NCBI GenBank assembly: GCA_035543335.1
Contig: DASZZH010000025.1
Span: 62,001-126,000 of the forward strand
Length of the DNA: 64,000 bases
Direction of reading: 5' to 3'
Origin: Burkholderiales bacterium
GTDB taxonomy: Bacteria; Pseudomonadota; Gammaproteobacteria; Burkholderiales; JAHFRG01
In this document: positions 18,638-26,952 of the stretch, in pieces
Layout of the letters: the number at the start of each line of letters is the position of its first letter
Numbering within the stretch: position 1 is the stretch's first letter
Made by a program: the position numbers and the translations under genes
The notes under the pieces: generated by a model
What the model was told of the DNA's origin: nothing
The model's database searches: none
What the model saw: only the letters and a program-made list of their open reading frames with translations

Positions 18638-18711
18638 TTGCGGCCTCCATTTTGTTCGGGTATTATTTCTCACGAAACAAGATCAAAGCAACTCTAAATA
18701 TCAAGACCTAT

Positions 18712-19107
18712 ATGTTAAACAATCTGATTCCGTTCCTCTTGCACTGGGGAATTCTTGCGCTTTCGCTGTGGGTGGCAAGCCATATCTTTCACGGTGTTTC
18801 ATTTGACAGCAAGTCGGCTTTGATCGTTTCCGCGCTGCTGCTGGGATTCGTCAACGCGATACTCCGTCCGGTTCTTATTCTGTTCACATTGCCGTTGACC
18901 GTCATTACGTTCGGATTCTTCCTGCTCGTTATCAATGCGCTCATGGTCCTGCTGGTTTCTTCGCTGGTGCGCGGCTTCAAGGTCTCCGGGTTCTGGACCG
19001 CATTCTTTGCCAGCATCTTTATTTCCGTCCTCAGCTTCCTGGTAAGCTTTTTCATATTCGGCGGCGCCTCCGGATTCGAGCCGGCAAGCAGCCATATCTC
19101 GGTGTAG
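18712..19107 (+). CDS. Phage holin family 4 / YvlD-like membrane protein
   Basis: 131 residues from the ATG at 18712 (MLNNLIPFLLHWGILALSLW); the upstream open part is not protein-like. It has four hydrophobic segments and the family block LLGFVNAILRPVLILFTLPLTVITFG around residues 45-70. This small inner-membrane family (COG1950) is widespread in bacteria and of unknown function; the holin name does not imply lysis. It is followed 11 bases later by pldA on the same strand, so the two may share a transcript and an envelope role. Confidence 0.85.
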   Translation: MLNNLIPFLLHWGILALSLWVASHIFHGVSFDSKSALIVSALLLGFVNAILRPVLILFTLPLTVITFGFFLLVINALMVLLVSSLVRGFKVSGFWTAFFASIFISVLSFLVSFFIFGGASGFEPASSHISV

Positions 19108-19118
19108 GAGTTTTATCA

Positions 19119-20165
19119 ATGAACTTGCGTGCCATTACTTCAACCCATTCCGCCTCAGCAATTTCAATCGCAATTCTTTTATTTACTGCAAATAGTTCTT
19201 GGGCCGCTTCGCTTGCTGATTATGCGCAATGCGCGCAGATTGCCGACGAGGCCGAACGCTTGAAGTGTTATGATGCGCTCACAAAAGAAGCCCCCGACTT
19301 GCCTGCACCGGCAACTGAAGCAGAATCACTGTCCGCAGCAGAGCAAATAGCCAAGACCATCACAGCTACGCCATTGGCGCAGCGCTGGGAGCTCGATGAC
19401 GAAACCAAAGGAGGGACGTTCAATCTTCGTCCGCATAAACCGAATTACTTCCTGCCGGTCCGCTACAGCTCATCGCCGAACAACCAGCCCTTCAGCCCGT
19501 CGAGCGGTCCCGTGCCGCAGCAACCGGCGCTGGATCATGCCGAAGTCAAGTTCCAGCTGAGCTTCAAAACGAAAATAGCAGAAAATCTGTTCTCAGATCG
19601 TGCCGATCTGTGGTTCGCCTATACGCAGCAGTCACACTGGCAGGCATACCAGGAGCATCCCGCATTCCGGGAAACCGATTACGAGCCCGAAATCATGCTG
19701 GTGTTCCGCACCGATTACGATTTGCTCGGAATGAAAGGGCGTTTTATCAATTTCGGCCTGGTGCACCAATCGAACGGCCGCCGCGGGGTATTGGAGCGCG
19801 GTTGGAACCGGGCCTATCTCCAGTTCGGCTACGAACGCGGCGGTTTCGTATTGATGGTCAGGCCATGGTGGCGAATTCCCGAGAAGACTTCGAGCGACGA
19901 CAATCCGGATATCTCAAGCTACCTGGGATACGGCGACGTGCTCGCCGCCTACAAACGGGGTGAGCAAACCTATTCCCTGCTGCTGCGGAACAATCTGAGT
20001 GTCAATAACAACCGCGGCGCGGTGCAGTTTAGTTGGAGCTTCCCGATCTGGAGCAGATTGAAAGGCTACGTGCAACTGTTCTCGGGCTACGGCGAGAGCC
20101 TGATTGACTATAATCATCGCCAAAACACCATCGGGATCGGGGTCGTATTGACTGACTGGATGTAG
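19119..20165 (+). CDS. pldA: Outer membrane phospholipase A
   Basis: 348 residues with a signal peptide (to about residue 30, ANSSWAAS) followed by a soluble stretch and a C-terminal beta-barrel of the PldA family. The catalytic block LVHQSNGRRG near residue 215 carries the His and Ser of this esterase. Alternating aromatic strands continue to a barrel-type C-terminus. It hydrolyses phospholipids that reach the outer leaflet of the outer membrane and works as a calcium-dependent dimer. The N-terminal extension with YAQCAQIADEAERLKCYD is like that seen in other proteobacterial members. The accessory region begins just after it. Confidence 0.92.
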   Translation: MNLRAITSTHSASAISIAILLFTANSSWAASLADYAQCAQIADEAERLKCYDALTKEAPDLPAPATEAESLSAAEQIAKTITATPLAQRWELDDETKGGTFNLRPHKPNYFLPVRYSSSPNNQPFSPSSGPVPQQPALDHAEVKFQLSFKTKIAENLFSDRADLWFAYTQQSHWQAYQEHPAFRETDYEPEIMLVFRTDYDLLGMKGRFINFGLVHQSNGRRGVLERGWNRAYLQFGYERGGFVLMVRPWWRIPEKTSSDDNPDISSYLGYGDVLAAYKRGEQTYSLLLRNNLSVNNNRGAVQFSWSFPIWSRLKGYVQLFSGYGESLIDYNHRQNTIGIGVVLTDWM

Positions 20166-20247: not shown

Positions 20248-20376
20248 ATGGCGAAAAAGATATTTACCCCTGAACAAATCTTCGCCAAGCTGCGCCAGAT
20301 TGAGATGAGCGAGCGCTCTAACCTGTCAATCCAGAGCGGACGCGCGCAAGCGCGCGCCGCTGATTTCGAACGTTGA
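20248..20376 (+). pseudogene. IS3-type transposase OrfA stub
   Basis: The first ~20 codons read MAKKIFTPEQIFAKLRQIEM, the characteristic N-terminus of IS3-family OrfA (helix-turn-helix transposase). After codon 20 the frame runs into an attC site and ends at 20376. No OrfB and no right end follow. It is a dead fragment left where the cassette array joins the chromosome. The 80 bases between pldA and this stub are AT-rich and may hold the old IS end. Confidence 0.72.
20314..20374 (+). other. attC site 1 (interrupted at its core)
   Basis: Starts with an inverse core site ending CTCTAAC (20316-20322). A near-perfect hairpin with one extrahelical base (AGCGGACGCGCGC / GCGCGCGCCGCT) follows, then GAACGTT. 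The core should continue as AGGTG, but a 158-base TIR element is inserted after GTT and the core resumes at 20533 as GTTAGGTG. The structure matches integron attC sites. Confidence 0.72.
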
Positions 20377-20532
20377 GGCTGTGCAAAAAAACTCTTTGAA
20401 TTTACCTTTTGGGTTTGAATGACAAGTCGACCTCGTAGAACGGCCTACAAGCATCGATCGGACACCAGGGAATGGCAGAGCACCATCGATTTTTGATATG
20501 TGCGACCCCACAGTGGGTTTTTGCACAGCCTC
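20375..20532. mobile_element. 158-bp TIR element inserted in an attC core
   Basis: Ends are inverted repeats GAGGCTGTGCAAAAA (20375-20389) and TTTTTGCACAGCCTC (20518-20532). It is flanked on both sides by GTT, which looks like a three-base target duplication of the attC core G/TTAGGTG. There is no transposase gene, so it is non-autonomous. The same core is intact at 23523-23529, giving an empty-site comparison within this window. Confidence 0.75.
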
Positions 20533-20563
20533 GTTAGGTGTCAGACGAGGCGAGTACGCGAAA

Positions 20564-20953
20564 TTGCGAAGTGCATTAGAGTTGCATGATTCCCGCGTGA
20601 GCCGCATAGAGCTGTTGGATGGCCTTGCGATGATCTATTTTTCACACGCCTACGTTCACAAGTCAAAGGGGACACCAGGCAGAGACCCCGGCACGAGCTG
20701 GAGTCAGGAAGCGAAGTTAGTTCTGTGGGAGGCGACCGCATCGGCGCCGTTGCCACTGCTGCCCAATACGATATCCGAAGGATTTTTGGAAGTTGGGGGT
20801 ATTAGACACGAACTCATTCCTCTGCCATTTAAACGTAAAGTTGGTGCAAAGCTCTACCTGACATTTATTGACGGCGTCCAAACGGAAATTGCCGGTAATC
20901 GGCCGTTGATAGAATTGCTGGGTACACCGATTTACCTGGAGGATTTTTCATGA
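20564..20953 (+). CDS. Cassette-borne hypothetical protein, copy A
   Basis: About 129 residues if read from TTG at 20564. An ATG further up lies inside the inserted TIR element and would not be original. The protein (LELHDSRVSRIELLDG ... IPLPFKRKVGAKLYLTFIDG ... LLGTPIYLEDFS) has no motif I can name. It has a near-identical partner at 23554-23943: the two cassettes align over 421 bases with nine differences I can count and no gaps. The stop falls two bases before attC 2, as is usual in integron cassettes. It is likely a cytoplasmic single-domain protein; function unknown. Confidence 0.7.
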   Translation: MRSALELHDSRVSRIELLDGLAMIYFSHAYVHKSKGTPGRDPGTSWSQEAKLVLWEATASAPLPLLPNTISEGFLEVGGIRHELIPLPFKRKVGAKLYLTFIDGVQTEIAGNRPLIELLGTPIYLEDFS

Positions 20954-20954
20954 C

Positions 20955-21037
20955 ACCTAACCCGACGGTGAACACGGACTTGCAAACAGCGGCGCTGCGC
21001 GTGCTGTTTGCAAGCCGATTACCTTAGTTCGTTAGGC
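20955..21037 (+). other. attC site 2
   Basis: An 83-base site with inverse core ACCTAAC (20955-20961) and core GTTAGGC (21031-21037). The imperfect hairpin pairs ACTTGCAAACAGC with GCTGTTTGCAAGC around a GC-rich tip. Spacing and core sequences match integron attC sites. It closes the copy-A cassette. Confidence 0.85.
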
Positions 21038-21050
21038 ATCTAAGACACAC

Positions 21051-21743
21051 ATGCCATCACTACCGCTCAAACAACTCGGCGCCGAAGCGATCGGCACGTT
21101 TTGCCTTGTCTTTGCCGGCACGGGTGCCATCATCATCAACGACATCAGCGGCGGGGTCATTTCACACGTTGGTATCGCGCTCACGTTCGGCCTCGTTGTC
21201 CTCGCAATGATCTACGCCATCGGCGATATCTCTGGCGCACACATAAATCCCGCTGTCACGATTGCCTTTTTTGCCGCTCGGCGTCTTCCCGCTCGCTTCG
21301 TCTTGCCGTACATCGCCAGTCAAAGCCTCGGTGCGTTGCTCGCAAGCGGTTTGCTCCGTTTACTCTTCTCGACACAGGCCAACCTCGGCACGACAATCCC
21401 TGCCGATTCCATCTGGCAATCGTTTGTGCTGGAGTTCATCCTCACTTTCATCCTCATGTTCGTCATCCTTGGAGTATCAACTGGCGCTAAAGAGAAAGGG
21501 TTAACCGCCGGAATCGCTGTCGGAGCCGTCATTGCACTGGAAGCCCTCTTTGCTGGCCCGATATCGGGCGCCTCAATGAATCCGGCGCGATCACTCGGCC
21601 CCGCTATCGTCTCATTGCAATTTTCAAGCCTATGGATTTATTTGGCCGCACCTGTTCTTGGTGCGATTGCTGCTGTTTCTGCCTGCCGGTGTGTGCGTGA
21701 AACCGGTTGTTGCACATCAGCGGAAGCCCAAGGAACACAATGA
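21051..21743 (+). CDS. MIP-family channel (aquaporin/AqpS-like)
   Basis: 230 residues with six membrane segments and the two pore motifs of the major intrinsic protein family, SGAHINPAVT near residue 65 and SGASMNPARS near 170. The ATG lies only 14 bases after the attC 2 core. It overlaps arsC as ATGA, so the pair is one unit in a cassette. In Sinorhizobium an AqpS-ArsC pair detoxifies arsenate: ArsC makes arsenite and AqpS lets it out. The same logic is inferred here. The C-terminus has a short Cys-rich tail (CRCVRETGCC), which is unusual for the family. Confidence 0.9.
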   Translation: MPSLPLKQLGAEAIGTFCLVFAGTGAIIINDISGGVISHVGIALTFGLVVLAMIYAIGDISGAHINPAVTIAFFAARRLPARFVLPYIASQSLGALLASGLLRLLFSTQANLGTTIPADSIWQSFVLEFILTFILMFVILGVSTGAKEKGLTAGIAVGAVIALEALFAGPISGASMNPARSLGPAIVSLQFSSLWIYLAAPVLGAIAAVSACRCVRETGCCTSAEAQGTQ

Positions 21744-22171
21744 CCGCCCAAACGCCAAAACGCCTGCTGTTTGTCTGCGTCGAAAACGCCAATCGTAGTC
21801 AAATGGCCGAGGCCTTTGCGCGCATTCACGGTGGCACACACATTGAAGCGTACAGTGCTGGGTCGCGTCCTGCCGGTCAAATCAACCTCAAAGCAATCGC
21901 TGCAATGCAAGAACTTGGTTACGATCTTACGCAACATCATTCAAACTCACTGTCCGATATTCCGAATGTGGAATATGATTTTGTCGCAACGATGGGCTGT
22001 GGTGATGCGTGCCCATTCGTCCGCGCCAAGCGACGCGAAGATTGGAATATTCCAGACCCAAAGCATATGGAACTCGACGAGTTTCGCTCCGTACGCGACG
22101 ACATCGAGCAAAAAGTCAAAAGCGTCCTCACCACGTTGTTGCAAGAAGACGTCGCCCCCAAAGATGCCTAA
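21740..22171 (+). CDS. arsC: Arsenate reductase, low-molecular-weight phosphatase type
   Basis: 143 residues from the ATG at 21740, overlapping the channel gene. The N-terminal P-loop CVENANRS (Cys13 and Arg19, the CX5R signature) and the general-acid region NIPDPKHM near residue 112 place it in the LMW protein tyrosine phosphatase family. Pairing with the MIP channel and the MGCGDACPF block (extra cysteines for disulfide relay) favour arsenate reductase over a protein phosphatase. The stop lies inside the inverse core of the next attC (GCCTAAC). No arsR or arsB is present in the cassette. Confidence 0.88.
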   Translation: MTAQTPKRLLFVCVENANRSQMAEAFARIHGGTHIEAYSAGSRPAGQINLKAIAAMQELGYDLTQHHSNSLSDIPNVEYDFVATMGCGDACPFVRAKRREDWNIPDPKHMELDEFRSVRDDIEQKVKSVLTTLLQEDVAPKDA

Positions 22172-22190
22172 CCAGGCGATGCACCCGACC
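22166..22190 (+). other. Truncated attC site 3
   Basis: The left half of an attC: inverse core GCCTAAC (22166-22172) followed by CAGGCGATGCACCCGACC. The right half is missing, cut by an IS3-type fragment starting close to 22190. It shows that the channel-arsC pair was once a complete cassette. Confidence 0.72.
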
Positions 22191-22440
22191 CCAATCTTCC
22201 CCCGATAAAGTTGACACCCTGAGCTAACGAGCTTGGAGGTGTGAGATGGCGAGAGCTGGGCTGAGGAAGATCAACCGGTATAGCGAGGAATTCAAGGCCA
22301 CGGCGGTGAGGTTAAGCGATCTGCCGGAGGTGCTAATTCAGGATGTGGCGGCGGGATTGCGCACAAGCGGCAAATATGGTTTATTCGTTTGGCATCCAGT
22401 CTATTTTTCGGGTATTGGCGAGTTTGTTTGGATAGGTTAA
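22191..22440 (+). pseudogene. IS3-type transposase OrfA stub, second fragment
   Basis: From 22246 the frame reads MARAGLRKINRYSEEFKATA and continues VRLSDLPEVLIQDVAA, the N-terminal helix-turn-helix of an IS3-family OrfA, preceded by GGAGGTG and about 55 bases of IS end. After ~36 codons the similarity stops and unrelated AT-rich DNA follows to a stop at 22440. OrfB is absent. It is a different OrfA type from the stub at 20248, so at least two IS insertions have decayed in the array. Confidence 0.72.
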
Positions 22441-22449
22441 TCCAGGCTG

Positions 22450-22526
22450 TTTTCATGAAATCAGCGTACACTTGCCAATCTGGATTAGGCACCACTTTTG
22501 GTGTCCATTTTTAGTTAGAGCGCGCA
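22450..22526 (+). repeat. Repeated junction sequence, copy A
   Basis: Shares about 40 bases (TTTTCATGAAATCAGCGTAC and on to GGATTAG) with 23936-24032. It then shares a shorter CCACTTTTGG and GTGTCCATTT, ending in an attC-like core GTTAGAGCGC (22514-22523). Copy B has about 20 more bases in the middle. It stands where an attC left half would be expected, so it may be a mobile-element remnant joined to a surviving core site. Confidence 0.55.
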
Positions 22527-22600
22527 TGGCACTATGCGGCCCCTGGGACACCCGCATGTCGATCCGTAGTGTCGGCGACCTCAAACAAGGGAGATACGTT

Positions 22601-22885
22601 ATGCGCATGATCCTTCCTGGCGTGTTTTCCCTGTTGTTCCTAACAGCCTGCGCCAACTCTTCTGGCGTGTTCCGCGTAGATGACAATACTTACCAAGTTT
22701 CTACTCGAGCAACCTGGGAGCTAGGCGGCCGAGCAGGCGCGAAGCGTATGGCACTGGAAGAAGCGACTCGCCACTGTGATGCACAGCGCAGAGCTCTACG
22801 TGTTATTAAATCCACCGAAAACTATGGTCACTTCGAAGGTGGTACAGTCGACCTTGTTTTCAGCTGCGAACAGGCAAAGCAGTGA
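22601..22885 (+). CDS. Small cassette lipoprotein
   Basis: 94 residues from the ATG at 22601, chosen for the AAGGGAG site ten bases upstream; longer in-frame starts lack a ribosome site. The N-terminus is a lipoprotein signal (MRMILPGVFSLLFLTAC with the lipobox Cys at 17). The mature part has two cysteines (RHCDAQ, FSCEQA) that could form a disulfide. I do not recognise a family beyond small cassette-borne lipoproteins. Its cassette is bounded by the core at 22514 and attC 4. Confidence 0.72.
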   Translation: MRMILPGVFSLLFLTACANSSGVFRVDDNTYQVSTRATWELGGRAGAKRMALEEATRHCDAQRRALRVIKSTENYGHFEGGTVDLVFSCEQAKQ

Positions 22886-22902
22886 CGCTAGCAGATGTCG
22901 CG

Positions 22903-22971
22903 CTCTAACCGCTCGTTCGAGAGCGGACGCACGGCCATGCGGCCGCGCGCCGCCCAACGCGAACGTTAGGC
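22903..22971 (+). other. attC site 4
   Basis: A 69-base site: inverse core CTCTAAC (22903-22909) and core GTTAGGC (22965-22971). The interior is GC-rich and folds with GTTCG pairing to CGAAC near the ends. It closes the lipoprotein cassette. Confidence 0.82.
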
Positions 22972-22983
22972 AGTGAATTGGCT

Positions 22984-23451
22984 ATGGAAAACTTTTCAAA
23001 ATTGGAACCGCCTGTCAGAGACCGACTTATCGGGCATATCGACCGAAGATGGAGACAGCTTTATGAGCTTGAAAAAGAATGGGGCGAAAGAGCTTTAAAG
23101 TATCTGTTTCTTACAAATTCTGGTGGTGCTATTGCGACGTTAAGCTTTTTGGGCGCATACGATAAGGCGCTGAATTTGGTCAGCACAAAAATCGCTCTCT
23201 TTCTTTTCGTGTTCGGCGTTTTCCTCGCTGGCGTCTCAACAGCAAAAACATTTCATCATATGTCGCGCTTGCTCAAGGAATACAAGCTTGGAGTTGAGCA
23301 TTTTTATAGTGACAAGGTTTCGTGGGACTACTTGATTGAAGAAGATAAAAAGCGAGCCGAAGCCAGCTTCATGGACTATGCGATTCCATATGCATCATTT
23401 GGGTGTTTTGTCGGTGGAAGCATTGCAGGTGCCATCGCACTTTTTGCCTAA
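22984..23451 (+). CDS. Cassette membrane protein of unknown function
   Basis: 155 residues from ATG at 22984 (a TTG two codons earlier is possible). An N-terminal charged helical part (RDRLIGHIDRRWRQLYELEKEW) precedes two hydrophobic segments around residues 50-90 and a third at the C-terminal end (FGCFVGGSIAGAIALFA). The pattern resembles small membrane proteins common in integron cassettes; no function can be given. The stop codon lies within the inverse core GCCTAAC of attC 5, a compact cassette layout. Confidence 0.72.
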   Translation: MENFSKLEPPVRDRLIGHIDRRWRQLYELEKEWGERALKYLFLTNSGGAIATLSFLGAYDKALNLVSTKIALFLFVFGVFLAGVSTAKTFHHMSRLLKEYKLGVEHFYSDKVSWDYLIEEDKKRAEASFMDYAIPYASFGCFVGGSIAGAIALFA

Positions 23452-23529
23452 CGCATCGTTCGAGTCGTTCGCTTCGCTCACTGGGACTGGCCGCCTCCGG
23501 CGTCCAGCCCCTCAACTCAAACGTTAGGT
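23446..23529 (+). other. attC site 5
   Basis: An 84-base site with inverse core GCCTAAC (23446-23452) and core GTTAGGT (23523-23529). A strong hairpin pairs GGGACTGGCCGC with GGCGTCCAGCCC. Its right end is the intact version of the core that is interrupted by the TIR element at 20375-20532. Confidence 0.87.
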
Positions 23530-23553
23530 GTCAGACGAGGCGAGTACGCGAAA

Positions 23554-23943
23554 TTGCGAAGAGCATTGGAGTTGCACGATTCCCGCGTGAGCCGCATAGA
23601 GCTGTTGGATGGCCTTGCGATGATCTATTTTTCACACGCCTACGTTCACAAGTCAAAGGGGACACCAGGCAGAGACCCCGGCACGGGCTGGAGTCAGGAA
23701 GCGAGGTTAGTTCTGTGGGAGGCGACCGCATCGGCGCCGTTGCCCCCGCTGCCCAATACGATATCCGAAGGATTTTTGGAAGTTGGGGGTATTAGACACG
23801 AACTCATTCCTCTGCCATTTAAACGTAAAGTTGGTGCAAAGCTCCACCTGACATTTGTTGACGGCGTCCAAACGGAAATTGCCGGTAATCGGCCGTTGAT
23901 AGAATTGCTGGGTACACCGATTTACCTGGAGGATTTTTCATGA
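23554..23943 (+). CDS. Cassette-borne hypothetical protein, copy B
   Basis: About 129 residues from TTG at 23554, near-identical to the copy-A protein at 20564-20953. The whole cassette from the core GTTAGGTG to the stop is 421 bases in both. The few changes include conservative codons and a handful of replacements (for example Tyr to His in KLHLTF). Both copies keep an open frame, which argues that the protein is under selection or that the duplication is recent. Unlike copy A, no normal attC left half follows the stop; a repeated junction sequence does. Function unknown. Confidence 0.7.
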   Translation: MRRALELHDSRVSRIELLDGLAMIYFSHAYVHKSKGTPGRDPGTGWSQEARLVLWEATASAPLPPLPNTISEGFLEVGGIRHELIPLPFKRKVGAKLHLTFVDGVQTEIAGNRPLIELLGTPIYLEDFS

Positions 23944-24032
23944 AATCAGCGTACACTTGCCAATCTGGATTAGACCCCACTTTTGGGGTAATTAATTGCA
24001 CCTTTTCGTGTGTCCATTTCTAGTTAGGGCGC
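23936..24032 (+). repeat. Repeated junction sequence, copy B
   Basis: Homologous to 22450-22526 over TTTTCATGAAATCAGCGTAC through GGATTAG, then with extra bases ACCCCACTTTTGGGGTAATT (a small palindrome) before GTGTCCATTT and the core-like GTTAGGGC (24023-24030). It replaces the attC left half expected after copy B. Confidence 0.55.
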
Positions 24033-24038
24033 ATTGAC

Positions 24039-24419
24039 GTGCGAACTGCAGCCGCAATTTTCCTAGTATTCGGGTTTGCCTATCTGGCCTGGGATATCAG
24101 TCTCATCGTTGCTCACGGCGTTCAACTTGGCTCCGGATTGATGGTCGTCTTCGCAGCCGCGGTGTTGTATCAAGGTTATGCGCTTTGGAAGCGGGACCCT
24201 CGTGTCCGGTGGAGTGCGCTCGTGAGTGCTGTGGCGATTGCGGGCACCTGCGCGTACATTGCCTCAGTTTTCATTGCATCGCCGTTTCCAGAGAGCCTGC
24301 TGCATTTGCCGGGCGAGGTGTTGCCGCTGTTTGGCAGTGTGGTAGCGCTGAGCATCGCATTCGGGGTGGCGTCAGTTGTGCTTATCCTGCCTATCAGGCG
24401 TCGCCCCAATGCGCCCTAA
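24039..24419 (+). CDS. Cassette membrane protein (four-helix), unknown function
   Basis: 126 residues from a GTG start at 24039. Four hydrophobic segments (FLVFGFAYLAWDISLIV, LMVVFAAAVLYQGYALW, VSAVAIAGTCAYIASVF, VVALSIAFGVASVVLIL) leave little soluble sequence. It ends in an Arg-rich cytoplasmic tail. No family motif is recognised. The stop is inside the inverse core GCCCTAAC of attC 6. It is a typical integron-borne small membrane protein. Confidence 0.68.
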   Translation: MRTAAAIFLVFGFAYLAWDISLIVAHGVQLGSGLMVVFAAAVLYQGYALWKRDPRVRWSALVSAVAIAGTCAYIASVFIASPFPESLLHLPGEVLPLFGSVVALSIAFGVASVVLILPIRRRPNAP

Positions 24420-24494
24420 CCACGCGGTCAACACGGACGCCCACCGGCGGCGCTTCGCGCCTTGGTGGTCGCCGGTTACCTTGATCCGTTAGCA
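24413..24494 (+). other. attC site 6
   Basis: An 82-base site with inverse core GCCCTAAC (24413-24420) and core GTTAGCA (24488-24494). The hairpin pairs GCCCACCGGCGGCGC with GCGCCTTGGTGGTCGC around a TTC tip. The core departs slightly from GTTRRRY but the fold and spacing are right. Confidence 0.8.
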
Positions 24495-24507
24495 GCCAAA
24501 GGACGGT

Positions 24508-25137
24508 ATGGAAGAGTTCATCAATGTAATTACTTGGCAACACCTCGCTTTCATATTTGCGTTGGTGTTCATAGCCCTATTCCGTCAACCGCTTTCTGAT
24601 CTTATTCGCCGAATCACGAAAATTGATAAAAAAGGATTAACTGCTGGTCCGGCTCCGGAAGCGCAGCGAGAGAAATCTGATCCAGAGGCTGTGCAGCAAC
24701 TTCTTGATGTTGTAGGAAACTCAATCGTAATTACGGACATTGAGGGTCGTATTAAGAACGAGCTAAAAGCAAAAGGTCTCAGTACTGAGGGGGACAGCGT
24801 TAAAGTTCTCATTAGGCATTTGGTCGGTACGCAACTACTTTTGTCTTTTGAGCAAATACACAGCCTTATATTCGGCAGTCAGATTTTTTTGCTTAAAAAG
24901 CTAAACGAGGTTGCCGGGCAAGGCAGGCCTTTGTCCTTTGTTAACGGTCATATTGATCACGTTAAGACGCTATATTCAAACGCGCTTGGTGATTGGTCTC
25001 ACAACCAATATCTCGAATTTATGTATGGTCGTTTACTTATCATTCGTCATGGCGACCAAATTCATATTACGAATCTCGGCGTAGAATATTTAACATGGGT
25101 AGCACGTAATGGGCGTAGAGAAGACAATCCACTATAA
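24508..25137 (+). CDS. Cassette protein with N-terminal membrane anchor, unknown function
   Basis: 209 residues with an AAAGGA site before the ATG. One hydrophobic segment (LAFIFALVFIALF, residues ~12-25) would anchor it. A charged linker and a mostly alpha-helical soluble domain follow (QQLLDVVGNSIVI to YLTWVARNG), the last part resembling a winged-helix-like end (GRLLIIRHGDQIHITNLGVEYL). I do not recognise a family with certainty. Codon use is more AT-rich than in the H4MPT genes, in line with a captured cassette. Confidence 0.7.
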   Translation: MEEFINVITWQHLAFIFALVFIALFRQPLSDLIRRITKIDKKGLTAGPAPEAQREKSDPEAVQQLLDVVGNSIVITDIEGRIKNELKAKGLSTEGDSVKVLIRHLVGTQLLLSFEQIHSLIFGSQIFLLKKLNEVAGQGRPLSFVNGHIDHVKTLYSNALGDWSHNQYLEFMYGRLLIIRHGDQIHITNLGVEYLTWVARNGRREDNPL

Positions 25138-25138
25138 G

Positions 25139-25221
25139 GCTGCTAATAAATCGCTCAACCCGGACGTGCAAAAGTGGCGCTTCGCTCTGCTTTTGCTCTC
25201 TGGTTAGCTCAATCGTTAGAG
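25139..25221 (+). other. attC site 7
   Basis: An 83-base site: left end GCTGCTAAT (25139-25147), complementary to the GTTAGCAGC core of attC 6, and core GTTAGAG (25215-25221). The interior pairs GCAAAAG with CTTTTGC around TGGCGCTTCGCTC. The left core is AAT rather than AAC, so it may be weak. Confidence 0.7.
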
Positions 25222-25225
25222 CGCT

Positions 25226-25852
25226 ATGCCGAAGAAAACTGACCTGACGAAGTTCCGTACGTCATCGCTCAAGGATGTCACTGAGCTTCGTAATCGTTTT
25301 AAGGCTTTAGTCGCAGGGCAACCAGCGCCTTCGGTCGACGATCTGCGCTGGTTCACATATATGACGGCAGTGGAGCTACATGCTATCTGGGAAAGGTATG
25401 CGGAAGGTCGTCTGGTAGTGGCGCTAAATCACTCACCGGCGCACTTTCTCGCGCAGAATTCAGTAAAGGGAGTAAAAAAGGTGCCTGCGGGTCTCGCCGA
25501 ATATGTCGTGCGTGGTGGTTCAAAGTACTTCAACTTTCGATCCATTGACGACCTTAACGACAAAGCTAACAAGTTGCTCTCAAGTGCTCACAATCCGTTT
25601 GCGCCCCTGACAAAAGTCCACAAAGATCATTTGGATTCGCTAGCCTCGGTCAGGAACCTGATTGTGCACAAAAGCGACGCAGCGAAATCTTCTTACAAGA
25701 CGAATCTTGGCAAAGTCTTCGGCTTTAAGTCCGCACCTTCTCCCGGTGAGTTTTTGGACTCCATTGACCACCGTACAAGTAGTCCATGCAGAGGGCAGCA
25801 GAGAATCTGGACCTTTTTTCATTATGTCAAGGATGCCATCAACAAGAGCTGA
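25226..25852 (+). CDS. HEPN-like cassette protein
   Basis: 208 residues, starting five bases after the attC 7 core. It is mostly alpha-helical, and near residue 142 carries RNLIVH, the R-x4-H signature of HEPN-fold proteins, within SLASVRNLIVHKSDAAKSSYK. An upstream helix reads TYMTAVELHAIWERYAEGRL. Many HEPN proteins are RNases in toxin-antitoxin or phage-defence systems; others only bind nucleotides or RNA. No partner nucleotidyltransferase or antitoxin gene lies in the cassette. The HEPN call rests on the motif and helical context alone. Confidence 0.65.
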   Translation: MPKKTDLTKFRTSSLKDVTELRNRFKALVAGQPAPSVDDLRWFTYMTAVELHAIWERYAEGRLVVALNHSPAHFLAQNSVKGVKKVPAGLAEYVVRGGSKYFNFRSIDDLNDKANKLLSSAHNPFAPLTKVHKDHLDSLASVRNLIVHKSDAAKSSYKTNLGKVFGFKSAPSPGEFLDSIDHRTSSPCRGQQRIWTFFHYVKDAINKS

Positions 25853-25854
25853 GC

Positions 25855-25932
25855 ACTCTAACCTGCGCTTCCACCCGACGCGCGAAAGCGCCGCTTCGCG
25901 CTCACTCGCGCGGGTCACCGCGCACGTTAGGC
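25855..25932 (+). other. attC site 8
   Basis: A 78-base site with inverse core ACTCTAAC (25855-25862) and core GTTAGGC (25926-25932). The GC-rich interior folds (CGACGCGCGAAAGCG against CGCTCACTCGCGCG). It is the last recognisable attC; none follows the next gene. Confidence 0.82.
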
Positions 25933-25956
25933 ACCGAATCCAAAAGGAATTCGACA

Positions 25957-26352
25957 ATGAGAACTGTCATTCGTCAAACCGTGGTATTACCGGCTTCGGC
26001 TGAAGCACTTTTTGAAATGTATTTAGATCCCTCCGCACACGCAGCCATTACGGGTGCGCGAGTCGTTATTGGAGACGAACCAGGTGCCAAGTTCCAGGCT
26101 TTCGACTGCGCTTTGACCGGCACGATTCTTAAAGTGGTAAGGCCGAGGCTGATTGTGCAGTCGTGGCGGTCCACCGAATTTAAGTCGGAGAATCCGGATT
26201 CCACTTTGATACTGTACTTCTCGCCGGAAGGAGATAAAGGGCGAATTGACCTGATTCACCTGGATGTGCCCGACCATGACTACGATGGGGTAACCCAAGG
26301 CTGGGAGAAATACTACTGGGTGCCTTGGCGCAAATATTTGGAAAGCCGGTAA
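25957..26352 (+). CDS. SRPBCC/AHSA1-family protein
   Basis: 131 residues from the ATG at 25957, with AAAAGGA 10 bases before; the open frame upstream runs through attC 8 and is not coding. The START/Bet v1-like pattern is clear: RQTVVLPASAEALFEMYLDP at the start, ITGARVVIGDEPGAKFQAFD in the middle, and a C-terminal helix GWEKYYWVPWRKYLES. Members bind hydrophobic ligands or act with Hsp90; the substrate is unknown. It follows the attC 8 core and has no attC after it, so it is the terminal cassette or the array is truncated here. Confidence 0.85.
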   Translation: MRTVIRQTVVLPASAEALFEMYLDPSAHAAITGARVVIGDEPGAKFQAFDCALTGTILKVVRPRLIVQSWRSTEFKSENPDSTLILYFSPEGDKGRIDLIHLDVPDHDYDGVTQGWEKYYWVPWRKYLESR

Positions 26353-26379: not shown

Positions 26380-26418
26380 TTGACACTTCGGCTATTCTGG
26401 CTATAATCTAGCCAGAAT
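26380..26418 (+). promoter_or_regulatory. Promoter and palindromic operator of the RelE/antitoxin module
   Basis: TTGACA (26380-26385) and TATAAT (26402-26407) are separated by 16 bases, a near-consensus sigma-70 promoter. A perfect ten-base inverted repeat, ATTCTGGCTA and TAGCCAGAAT (26394-26403 and 26409-26418), covers the -10 box and the toxin start codon. Expected transcription starts about 5 bases before the ATG at 26417, so the message would be almost leaderless. The palindrome is the natural site for antitoxin autorepression. Confidence 0.82.
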
Positions 26419-26719
26419 GCGTTTCGAGATCATTTTGGCCCCTGAGGCGGTTGAGGATTTTCGAGCATTGAAAGCCAACCCCCGCGCAGCCGTCCGGGAG
26501 GCTCTCGAAACACATCTTCGCCACGAACCGACGAAGACGAGTCAAAGTCGAATTAAACGGTTGCGTGGCTTGTCACGCCCTCAGTATCGCCTAAGGGTGG
26601 ATGAAGTACGCGTCTTTTACGATGTCACAACGACGACCGTAGAGGTTTTGGCGATCGTACCTAAATCGGAGGCCGCATTATGGCTGGCGAGATTCGGAAA
26701 TCCCGGAGGAAGGAAATAG
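26417..26719 (+). CDS. RelE/ParE-family toxin
   Basis: 100 residues of the RelE/ParE fold: FEIILAPEAVEDFRAL at the start, KRLRGLSRPQYRLRVDEVRVFYDV in the middle with the Arg-rich core of mRNA interferases, and a C-terminal KSEAALWLARFG. RelE toxins cut mRNA in the ribosome; ParE poisons gyrase. The RLRVDEVRVFYDV pattern favours RelE. The toxin comes first and overlaps the antitoxin gene by 40 bases. It lies just beyond the cassette array and could stabilise it. Confidence 0.87.
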   Translation: MRFEIILAPEAVEDFRALKANPRAAVREALETHLRHEPTKTSQSRIKRLRGLSRPQYRLRVDEVRVFYDVTTTTVEVLAIVPKSEAALWLARFGNPGGRK

Positions 26720-26952
26720 CGTTATCGGAAATCAAGGATGATTTGTCCCGTTATCTTCGAGAAGCGGAGAAACAGGAAATCCTGATTACCCGTCACGGAA
26801 AACCCGCAGGGGTTCTAATTGGCTTTCAGTCGGAGGATGATTGGTTCGACTACCGACTGGAGAACGACCCTCGTTTTCTTGAACGTGTCGAGAAGGCGCG
26901 CAGGAGCCTGCGCGCAGGTCACGGAGTCAAAATCGAGAATCTGAAAGCTTAG
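26680..26952 (+). CDS. Phd/YefM-like antitoxin
   Basis: 90 residues: an N-terminal DNA-binding part (IALSEIKDDLSRYLREAEKQEILITRHGKPAGVLIGF), typical of the Phd/YefM family, and an acidic-basic C-terminal tail that would wrap the toxin. It would neutralise the RelE-like toxin and repress the shared promoter at the palindrome 26394-26418. Its ATG lies inside the toxin frame, so its level depends on translation of the toxin cistron. The toxin-first order is less common for this family. Confidence 0.85.
   Translation: MAGEIRKSRRKEIALSEIKDDLSRYLREAEKQEILITRHGKPAGVLIGFQSEDDWFDYRLENDPRFLERVEKARRSLRAGHGVKIENLKA

Follow-up and report, generated by a model that had tools for sequence, protein, structure and literature searches.

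An array of integron cassettes with seven full attC sites and no adjacent integrase gene lies between mfnE and mfnB in the genome of a betaproteobacterial methylotroph (2.25 Mb, 41 contigs, 98.5% complete). The array is a CALIN of ordinary size made up of genuine integron cassettes, and it is probably a decayed, rearranged and composite integron that lost its integrase gene (intI) while keeping remnants of attI sites. The window, meaning the whole 64-kb stretch of DNA that was analysed, comprises bases 62001-126000 of contig C25 (313 kb), and all genome comparisons were made with draft assemblies.

The mfnE-mfnB interval

To the left of the array lie genes for an H4MPT-linked/MfnF-like protein, pabB and an MfnE-like kinase, and to its right genes for an MfnB-like synthase, a DHPS-like protein and a flavoprotein. 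Because mfnE is encoded on the plus strand and mfnB on the minus strand, the two genes converge, and the array inside their interval is placed between two 3' ends and interrupts no operon. An earlier note on this DNA had stated that the array splits cofactor genes that work together, which is correct as to its position between mfnE and mfnB, but the genes are convergent and no operon is cut. The cargo gives no hint of a link to methanofuran or H4MPT biology, and the convergent gap is probably just tolerated as the array's place. Also present between mfnE and the array (18652-20165) are a phage-holin-4-family gene and a phospholipase A1 gene, found in the mfnE-mfnB interval of neither of two congeners, G001 and G002. 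Immediately after the last cassette, beyond the attC array, come genes for a ParE-like toxin and a Phd/YefM-like antitoxin (26417-26952).

The corresponding interval measures 287 bp and holds no cassette in G001, whereas in G002 it extends over 2.4 kb and contains an attI-type site, a copy of cassette 1 with its attC, and further genes. The uninterrupted interval that the earlier note sought in relatives thus exists in one congener, but the other has its own cassettes there. Cassette 1 of the present genome shares 94% DNA identity with its G002 copy, compared to 68-89% for the flanking stretches compared, and this greater likeness of the cassette than of any flanking stretch points to exchange after the species split. 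The asmA-mutY interval behaves alike, being 190 bp long in G001 and filled with cassettes in the present genome. A repeat of roughly 30 bp (L113 13029-13056 and 14831-14862) borders the G002 cassettes on both sides; it corresponds to the 3' end of a DUF1761-like gene, as though the cassettes had inserted there.

Anatomy of the array

The features of the array are, from left to right (R1 and R3 are the attC and attI models introduced below):

20316-20374, +, attC A0, split (R'' to L' plus GTT); R1 match 20316-20377, 24.0 bits; the remainder of its core (GTTAGGT) is found at 20533, past the MITE-like insert
20375-20532, no strand, MITE-like element of 158 bp with 24-bp terminal inverted repeats (83%); GTT on both sides, a possible target duplication as read from the sequence
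20533-20961, +, cassette 1, one ORF ending at 20953, protein without assigned function; a 98% identical copy at 23523
20955-21037, +, attC A1; R1 15.2 bits, fold z -4.2
21051-21743, +, first gene of cassette 2, aquaporin of the MIP family; Pfam MIP 1.1e-52, NCBIfam TIGR00861 just above its cut-off
21740-22171, +, second gene of cassette 2, ArsC-like, low-molecular-weight phosphatase fold; Pfam LMWPc 4e-21
22166-22174, +, attC half site A2, consisting of the inverse core; 11 nt agree with the start of cassette 2
22206-22449, +, transposase-like remnant of IS3 type, recognised by eye, replacing the rest of A2
22481-22518, +, attI relic 1, the right-hand end of an attI-type site as far as its GTTAG core; R3 31.4 bits
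22514-22909, +, cassette 3, small ORF ending at 22885, lipoprotein-like; ends match over 11 nt
22903-22971, +, attC A3; R1 31.9 bits
22984-23451, +, cassette 4, ORF of 155 aa, probable membrane protein by eye
23446-23529, +, attC A4; R1 27.8 bits, fold z -4.1
23523-23943, +, cassette 5, the second copy of cassette 1 (98%), without its attC
23981-24027, +, attI relic 2; R3 36.6 bits; cassette 6 starts exactly at its core
24039-24419, +, cassette 6, ORF of 126 aa; cassette ends match over 14 nt
24414-24494, +, attC A6; R1 22.7 bits
24508-25137, +, cassette 7, ORF of 209 aa
25141-25221, +, attC A7; R1 25.3 bits
25226-25852, +, cassette 8, ORF of 208 aa with weak similarity to HEPN (RiboL-PSP), under the Pfam cut-off
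25856-25932, +, attC A8; R1 13.9 bits, fold z -3.3
25957-26352, +, last cassette, AHSA1-family protein; Pfam AHSA1 1.8e-11

No attC follows the AHSA1-family cassette, as judged by the lack of an R1 match downstream, and the left edge of the array is eroded, with A0 coming after an IS3-like remnant. The IS3-like remnants and the MITE-like element were recognised by eye and by their repeats, without a family model. The split A0, the half site A2, the attI relics and a cassette 5 devoid of its attC together indicate that the array is both composite and eroded.

The cassettes have no function in common, and cassettes 1, 3, 4, 6 and 7 carry no function assigned by Pfam, in agreement with the earlier description of the cargo as mostly of unknown function. 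The one clear functional module is the pair of aquaporin and ArsC-like genes, a plausible arsenic-detoxification unit; if it works as known ars operons do, it would reduce arsenate and allow arsenite out of the cell. The start of the ArsC-like gene overlaps the aquaporin gene, and ArsC models match its product at 1e-24, which is under their own cut-offs. No match above 60% identity to the ArsC-like protein was found on any of 72,556 plasmids, and a search for phage defence functions among the cassettes gave no significant PADLOC match.

attC sites and cassette ends

Detection of attC sites relied on a covariance model (R1) made from 10 attC sites at other loci of the genome, none of them from the window; like the two attI models below, it was built in this analysis, and its E-values are rough. 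The initial collection of attC sites came from a simple pairing-and-folding detector that also scores unrelated places, and conclusions therefore rest on the covariance model. The variable central loop of attC made full-length MAFFT alignments poor, and R1 accordingly uses trimmed arms. Seven full-length matches of 13.9-31.9 bits were found in the 64-kb window, all on the plus strand and within 20316-25932 (starts at 20316, 20955, 22903, 23446, 24414, 25141 and 25856), and the sole other match in the window was a 17-nt partial one of 11.5 bits. With the half site at 22168, these correspond to the attC-like sites (at least seven) and one half site that had been noticed by inspection between 20.3 and 25.9 kb, all in one orientation; the covariance check proposed at the time, run with R1 in place of IntegronFinder's model, thus recovered every one of the seven. 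That ORF stops fall in or adjoin the inverse cores of the attC sites, as had also been noticed, was borne out by the sequence and the ORFs. The two weakest sites, at 20955 and 25856, have R1 E-values of 0.36 and 0.73 that are not significant alone, and they were accepted because of their place, their spacing and their matching cassette ends. The bottom strands of the sites fold into attC-type hairpins, four of the seven folds beating all 200 shuffles and three not. A search of the array region with Rfam returned nothing relevant.

A test independent of R1 is provided by the cassette ends. Since the two halves of the core in a circular cassette come from a single attC, the start and end of the cassette must match once it is inserted. 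When each cassette start was compared with the reverse complement of the cassette's own 3' inverse core, 73 of 84 positions matched over the seven cassettes with both ends; as many matches were obtained in 2 of 5040 permutations, whose mean was 53. That the array could instead be ordinary genes separated by chance palindromes, with no integron involved, is so improbable that it can be set aside: three of the seven folds are indeed no better than some shuffles, but R1 matches are confined to the array sites, the cassette ends match, attI relics are present and the interval in G001 is free of cassettes.

Genome-wide, R1 gives 31 matches at E-values up to 1, compared to three in G002 and one in G001. 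Some attC sites of the window closely resemble sites on contigs C9 and C6 and in integron B, a likeness suggesting that all draw on one pool.

attI-type sites and relics

Two places in the array carry a repeat that matches the sequence between the integrase gene of contig C25 and its first cassette. Relic 1 is 97% identical to the site beside this integrase gene over 36 nt, and cassette 3 begins exactly at the core of the relic. A model of ten attI-type ends (R2) yielded 15 genomic matches, of which one was weak. An 85-nt attI model from which the window copies were left out (R3) found 14 sites, a count that may include variants because contigs C31 and C9 are possible strain variants, and among these are both relics, which cover model positions 47-85 (relic 1) and 39-85 (relic 2). 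G001 and G002 have four R3 sites each; among 297 further genomes of the order, only 7 had any, one or two apiece. An intI gene adjoins only one of the 14 sites in the present genome, the other 13 being without an adjacent integrase and most of them bordering cassettes. The identification of R3 sites as attI sites is supported, by sequence context, at 222.8 kb of C25 and outside the genus, where an R3 match lies between intI and an attC both in G127, whose intI is intact, and in G205, whose intI is decayed. Furthermore, 14 of 18 attI-type sites examined adjoin a cassette whose far end agrees with the junction in 11 or more of 14 bases, compared to 5.9% of mismatched pairs, which indicates that cassettes were inserted precisely at attI-type sites.

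The repeated 36-nt ends were also considered as ends of an insertion sequence of the IS1111-attC type; this reading was dropped because the sequence also occurs between intI and the first cassette at 223 kb of C25, and a related site is found in G127. An unexplained 39-nt stretch upstream is common to the two relics of the array, and thus one relic may be a copy of the other rather than a separate event.

Several further features of attI-type sites were observed. Contigs C31 and C9 (L022 and L023) have the 3' end of asmA in common at 93% identity, each continuing with attI-type sites and cassettes, and they may be strain variants or a duplication. In integron A, the attI region beside intI A on C38 (L009 18469-18719) contains two diverged tandem copies (76%) of a stretch of about 111 bp, both matched weakly by R3. 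Most attI-type sites (for instance L134 2753-2837, minus strand) share a conserved, partly palindromic motif near TTGATTCTGnTRTAGGATGACA, located approximately 60-75 nt upstream of the core; it is also present beside intI A and in G127, and could serve as a promoter or as a site for a regulator or an integrase.

Integron integrases

The window contains no integron integrase, as neither a TIGR02249 match nor, by tblastn with the genome's own IntI proteins, an IntI remnant was found, in line with the earlier remark that no tyrosine recombinase is present there. Three integrase genes above the TIGR02249 cut-off were found elsewhere in the genome, two of them intact (on C38 and C23). The third, at 223 kb of C25, is about 135 kb from the array and is the nearest TIGR02249 match on the contig; it spans two frames and is thus apparently frameshifted, which could be a sequencing error. 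The array is therefore without an integrase only locally: the description holds for the window, but the genome has three intI genes and cassettes at many loci, and the search for intI elsewhere that the earlier note proposed contradicts an integrase-less state of the genome. Genomes with several intI genes are not rare: 22% of intI-bearing genomes have more than one (PMC9024848), as do several genomes in our sample of the order.

Direct traces of intI loss exist in this genome. Contig C41 carries an N-terminal intI fragment near an attC, and on C6, at 4302, a C-terminal remnant lies just upstream of an attI-type site, the latter illustrating one route by which intI is deleted while attI and cassettes are left. 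A search for intI remnants at the array locus and beside most other orphan attI sites found none. In the congeners, integrase searches gave only weak matches of the XerC/XerD kind, and for G002 this absence is weaker evidence because the assembly is 85% complete.

Relation to known cassette arrays

CALINs, as defined with IntegronFinder 2.0, have at least two attC sites, one cassette orientation and no integrase nearby (PMC9024848). The array, with its seven full attC sites, matching cassette ends and nearest integrase gene 135 kb away, corresponds to this class, as the earlier note had it in describing a cluster of attC sites lacking an integrase, and its size is close to the average of almost six attC sites per CALIN (PMC9024848). 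In a complete integron intI adjoins attI and cassettes, whereas here there are attI relics but no intI. The two relics also set the array apart from the standard CALIN definition, which does not mention them; IntegronFinder does not search for attI outside class 1 (PMC9024848). CALINs have been proposed to be degraded integrons (PMC9024848) and can be mobilised in trans (PMC12444791). Those of Xanthomonas likewise lie away from the integrase locus and at the same chromosomal place in related species (PMC12444791), but here only two species have cassettes at the locus, their contents differ, and the genome has three intI genes and 13 attI sites without one. The array resembles sedentary chromosomal integrons in being chromosomal and in its cargo mostly without assigned function, and differs from them in its small size, mixed attC sites and lack of an adjacent integrase.

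Origin of the array

In the preferred reading, an integron integrase would have inserted cassettes between mfnE and mfnB by site-specific recombination. At least one integron with its attI at this place would then have lost intI, and cassette duplication, the MITE-like insertion and the IS3-like remnant would have scrambled the array into at least three segments, two still starting with a worn attI. This reading draws on the confinement of attC to the seven sites, the matching ends, the attI relics and the cassette-free interval of G001. It is also supported by the presence of the same attI family beside intact and decayed intI genes in other genera and beside intI here, by the intI traces on C6 and C41, and by the attC pool common to C9, C6 and integron B. 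Against it, the locus holds no intI remnant, the relics may be copies, and the two weakest attC sites are not significant alone. We infer that intI was lost at the mfnE-mfnB place itself, and the two intact integrases could possibly still move the cassettes of the array in trans.

Alternatively, the locus may never have possessed its own integrase, distant integrases instead inserting cassettes in trans, first at a chance genomic site (attG) and then at attC; the missing intI remnant would suit this origin. Cassette insertion at attG sites has been published (Loot et al. 2024, as cited in PMC12444791 and PMC11023631), and as described there would also put cassettes far from an integrase; moreover, two intact integrases exist in the genome and a congener has a different cassette set in the same interval. 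An attG site, in these accounts, is neither attC nor attI, however, and two attI relics inside the array would be unexpected from insertion there; traces of intI loss at sister loci also count against it. This origin is unlikely.

Assembly of the array elsewhere, for example behind another attI, followed by its transfer as a block through homologous recombination or an insertion sequence, is very unlikely. The duplication of cassette 1 and of an attI relic with its upstream sequence, the IS3-like remnants at the left edge and in mid-array, and the 94% identity of cassette 1 to its G002 copy as against 68-89% for flanking genes would all suit such a transfer, but the array is not flanked by a complete insertion sequence, and the stretches compared contain no further copy of the block.

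Significance

Arrays without an integrase are a known kind; what is unusual is the many stray attI sites without an integrase throughout one genome. A search of the literature, mostly outside subscription journals, found no description of integrase-less attI sites in this pattern. A genus-wide distributed integron, in which scattered attI sites of one family (13 without an integrase here) would be filled in trans by distant integrases, is distinctly unlikely.

What the locus adds to knowledge of CALINs is the presence of attI relics inside the array. With these relics retained, and with attI of this kind accompanied by integrase remnants at a sister locus of the genome, the array clearly illustrates how CALINs can arise. 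The 85-nt attI family, found 14 times in one small genome and also beside integrases in other genera, makes it testable whether attI sites without an integrase are fossils or are used in trans.
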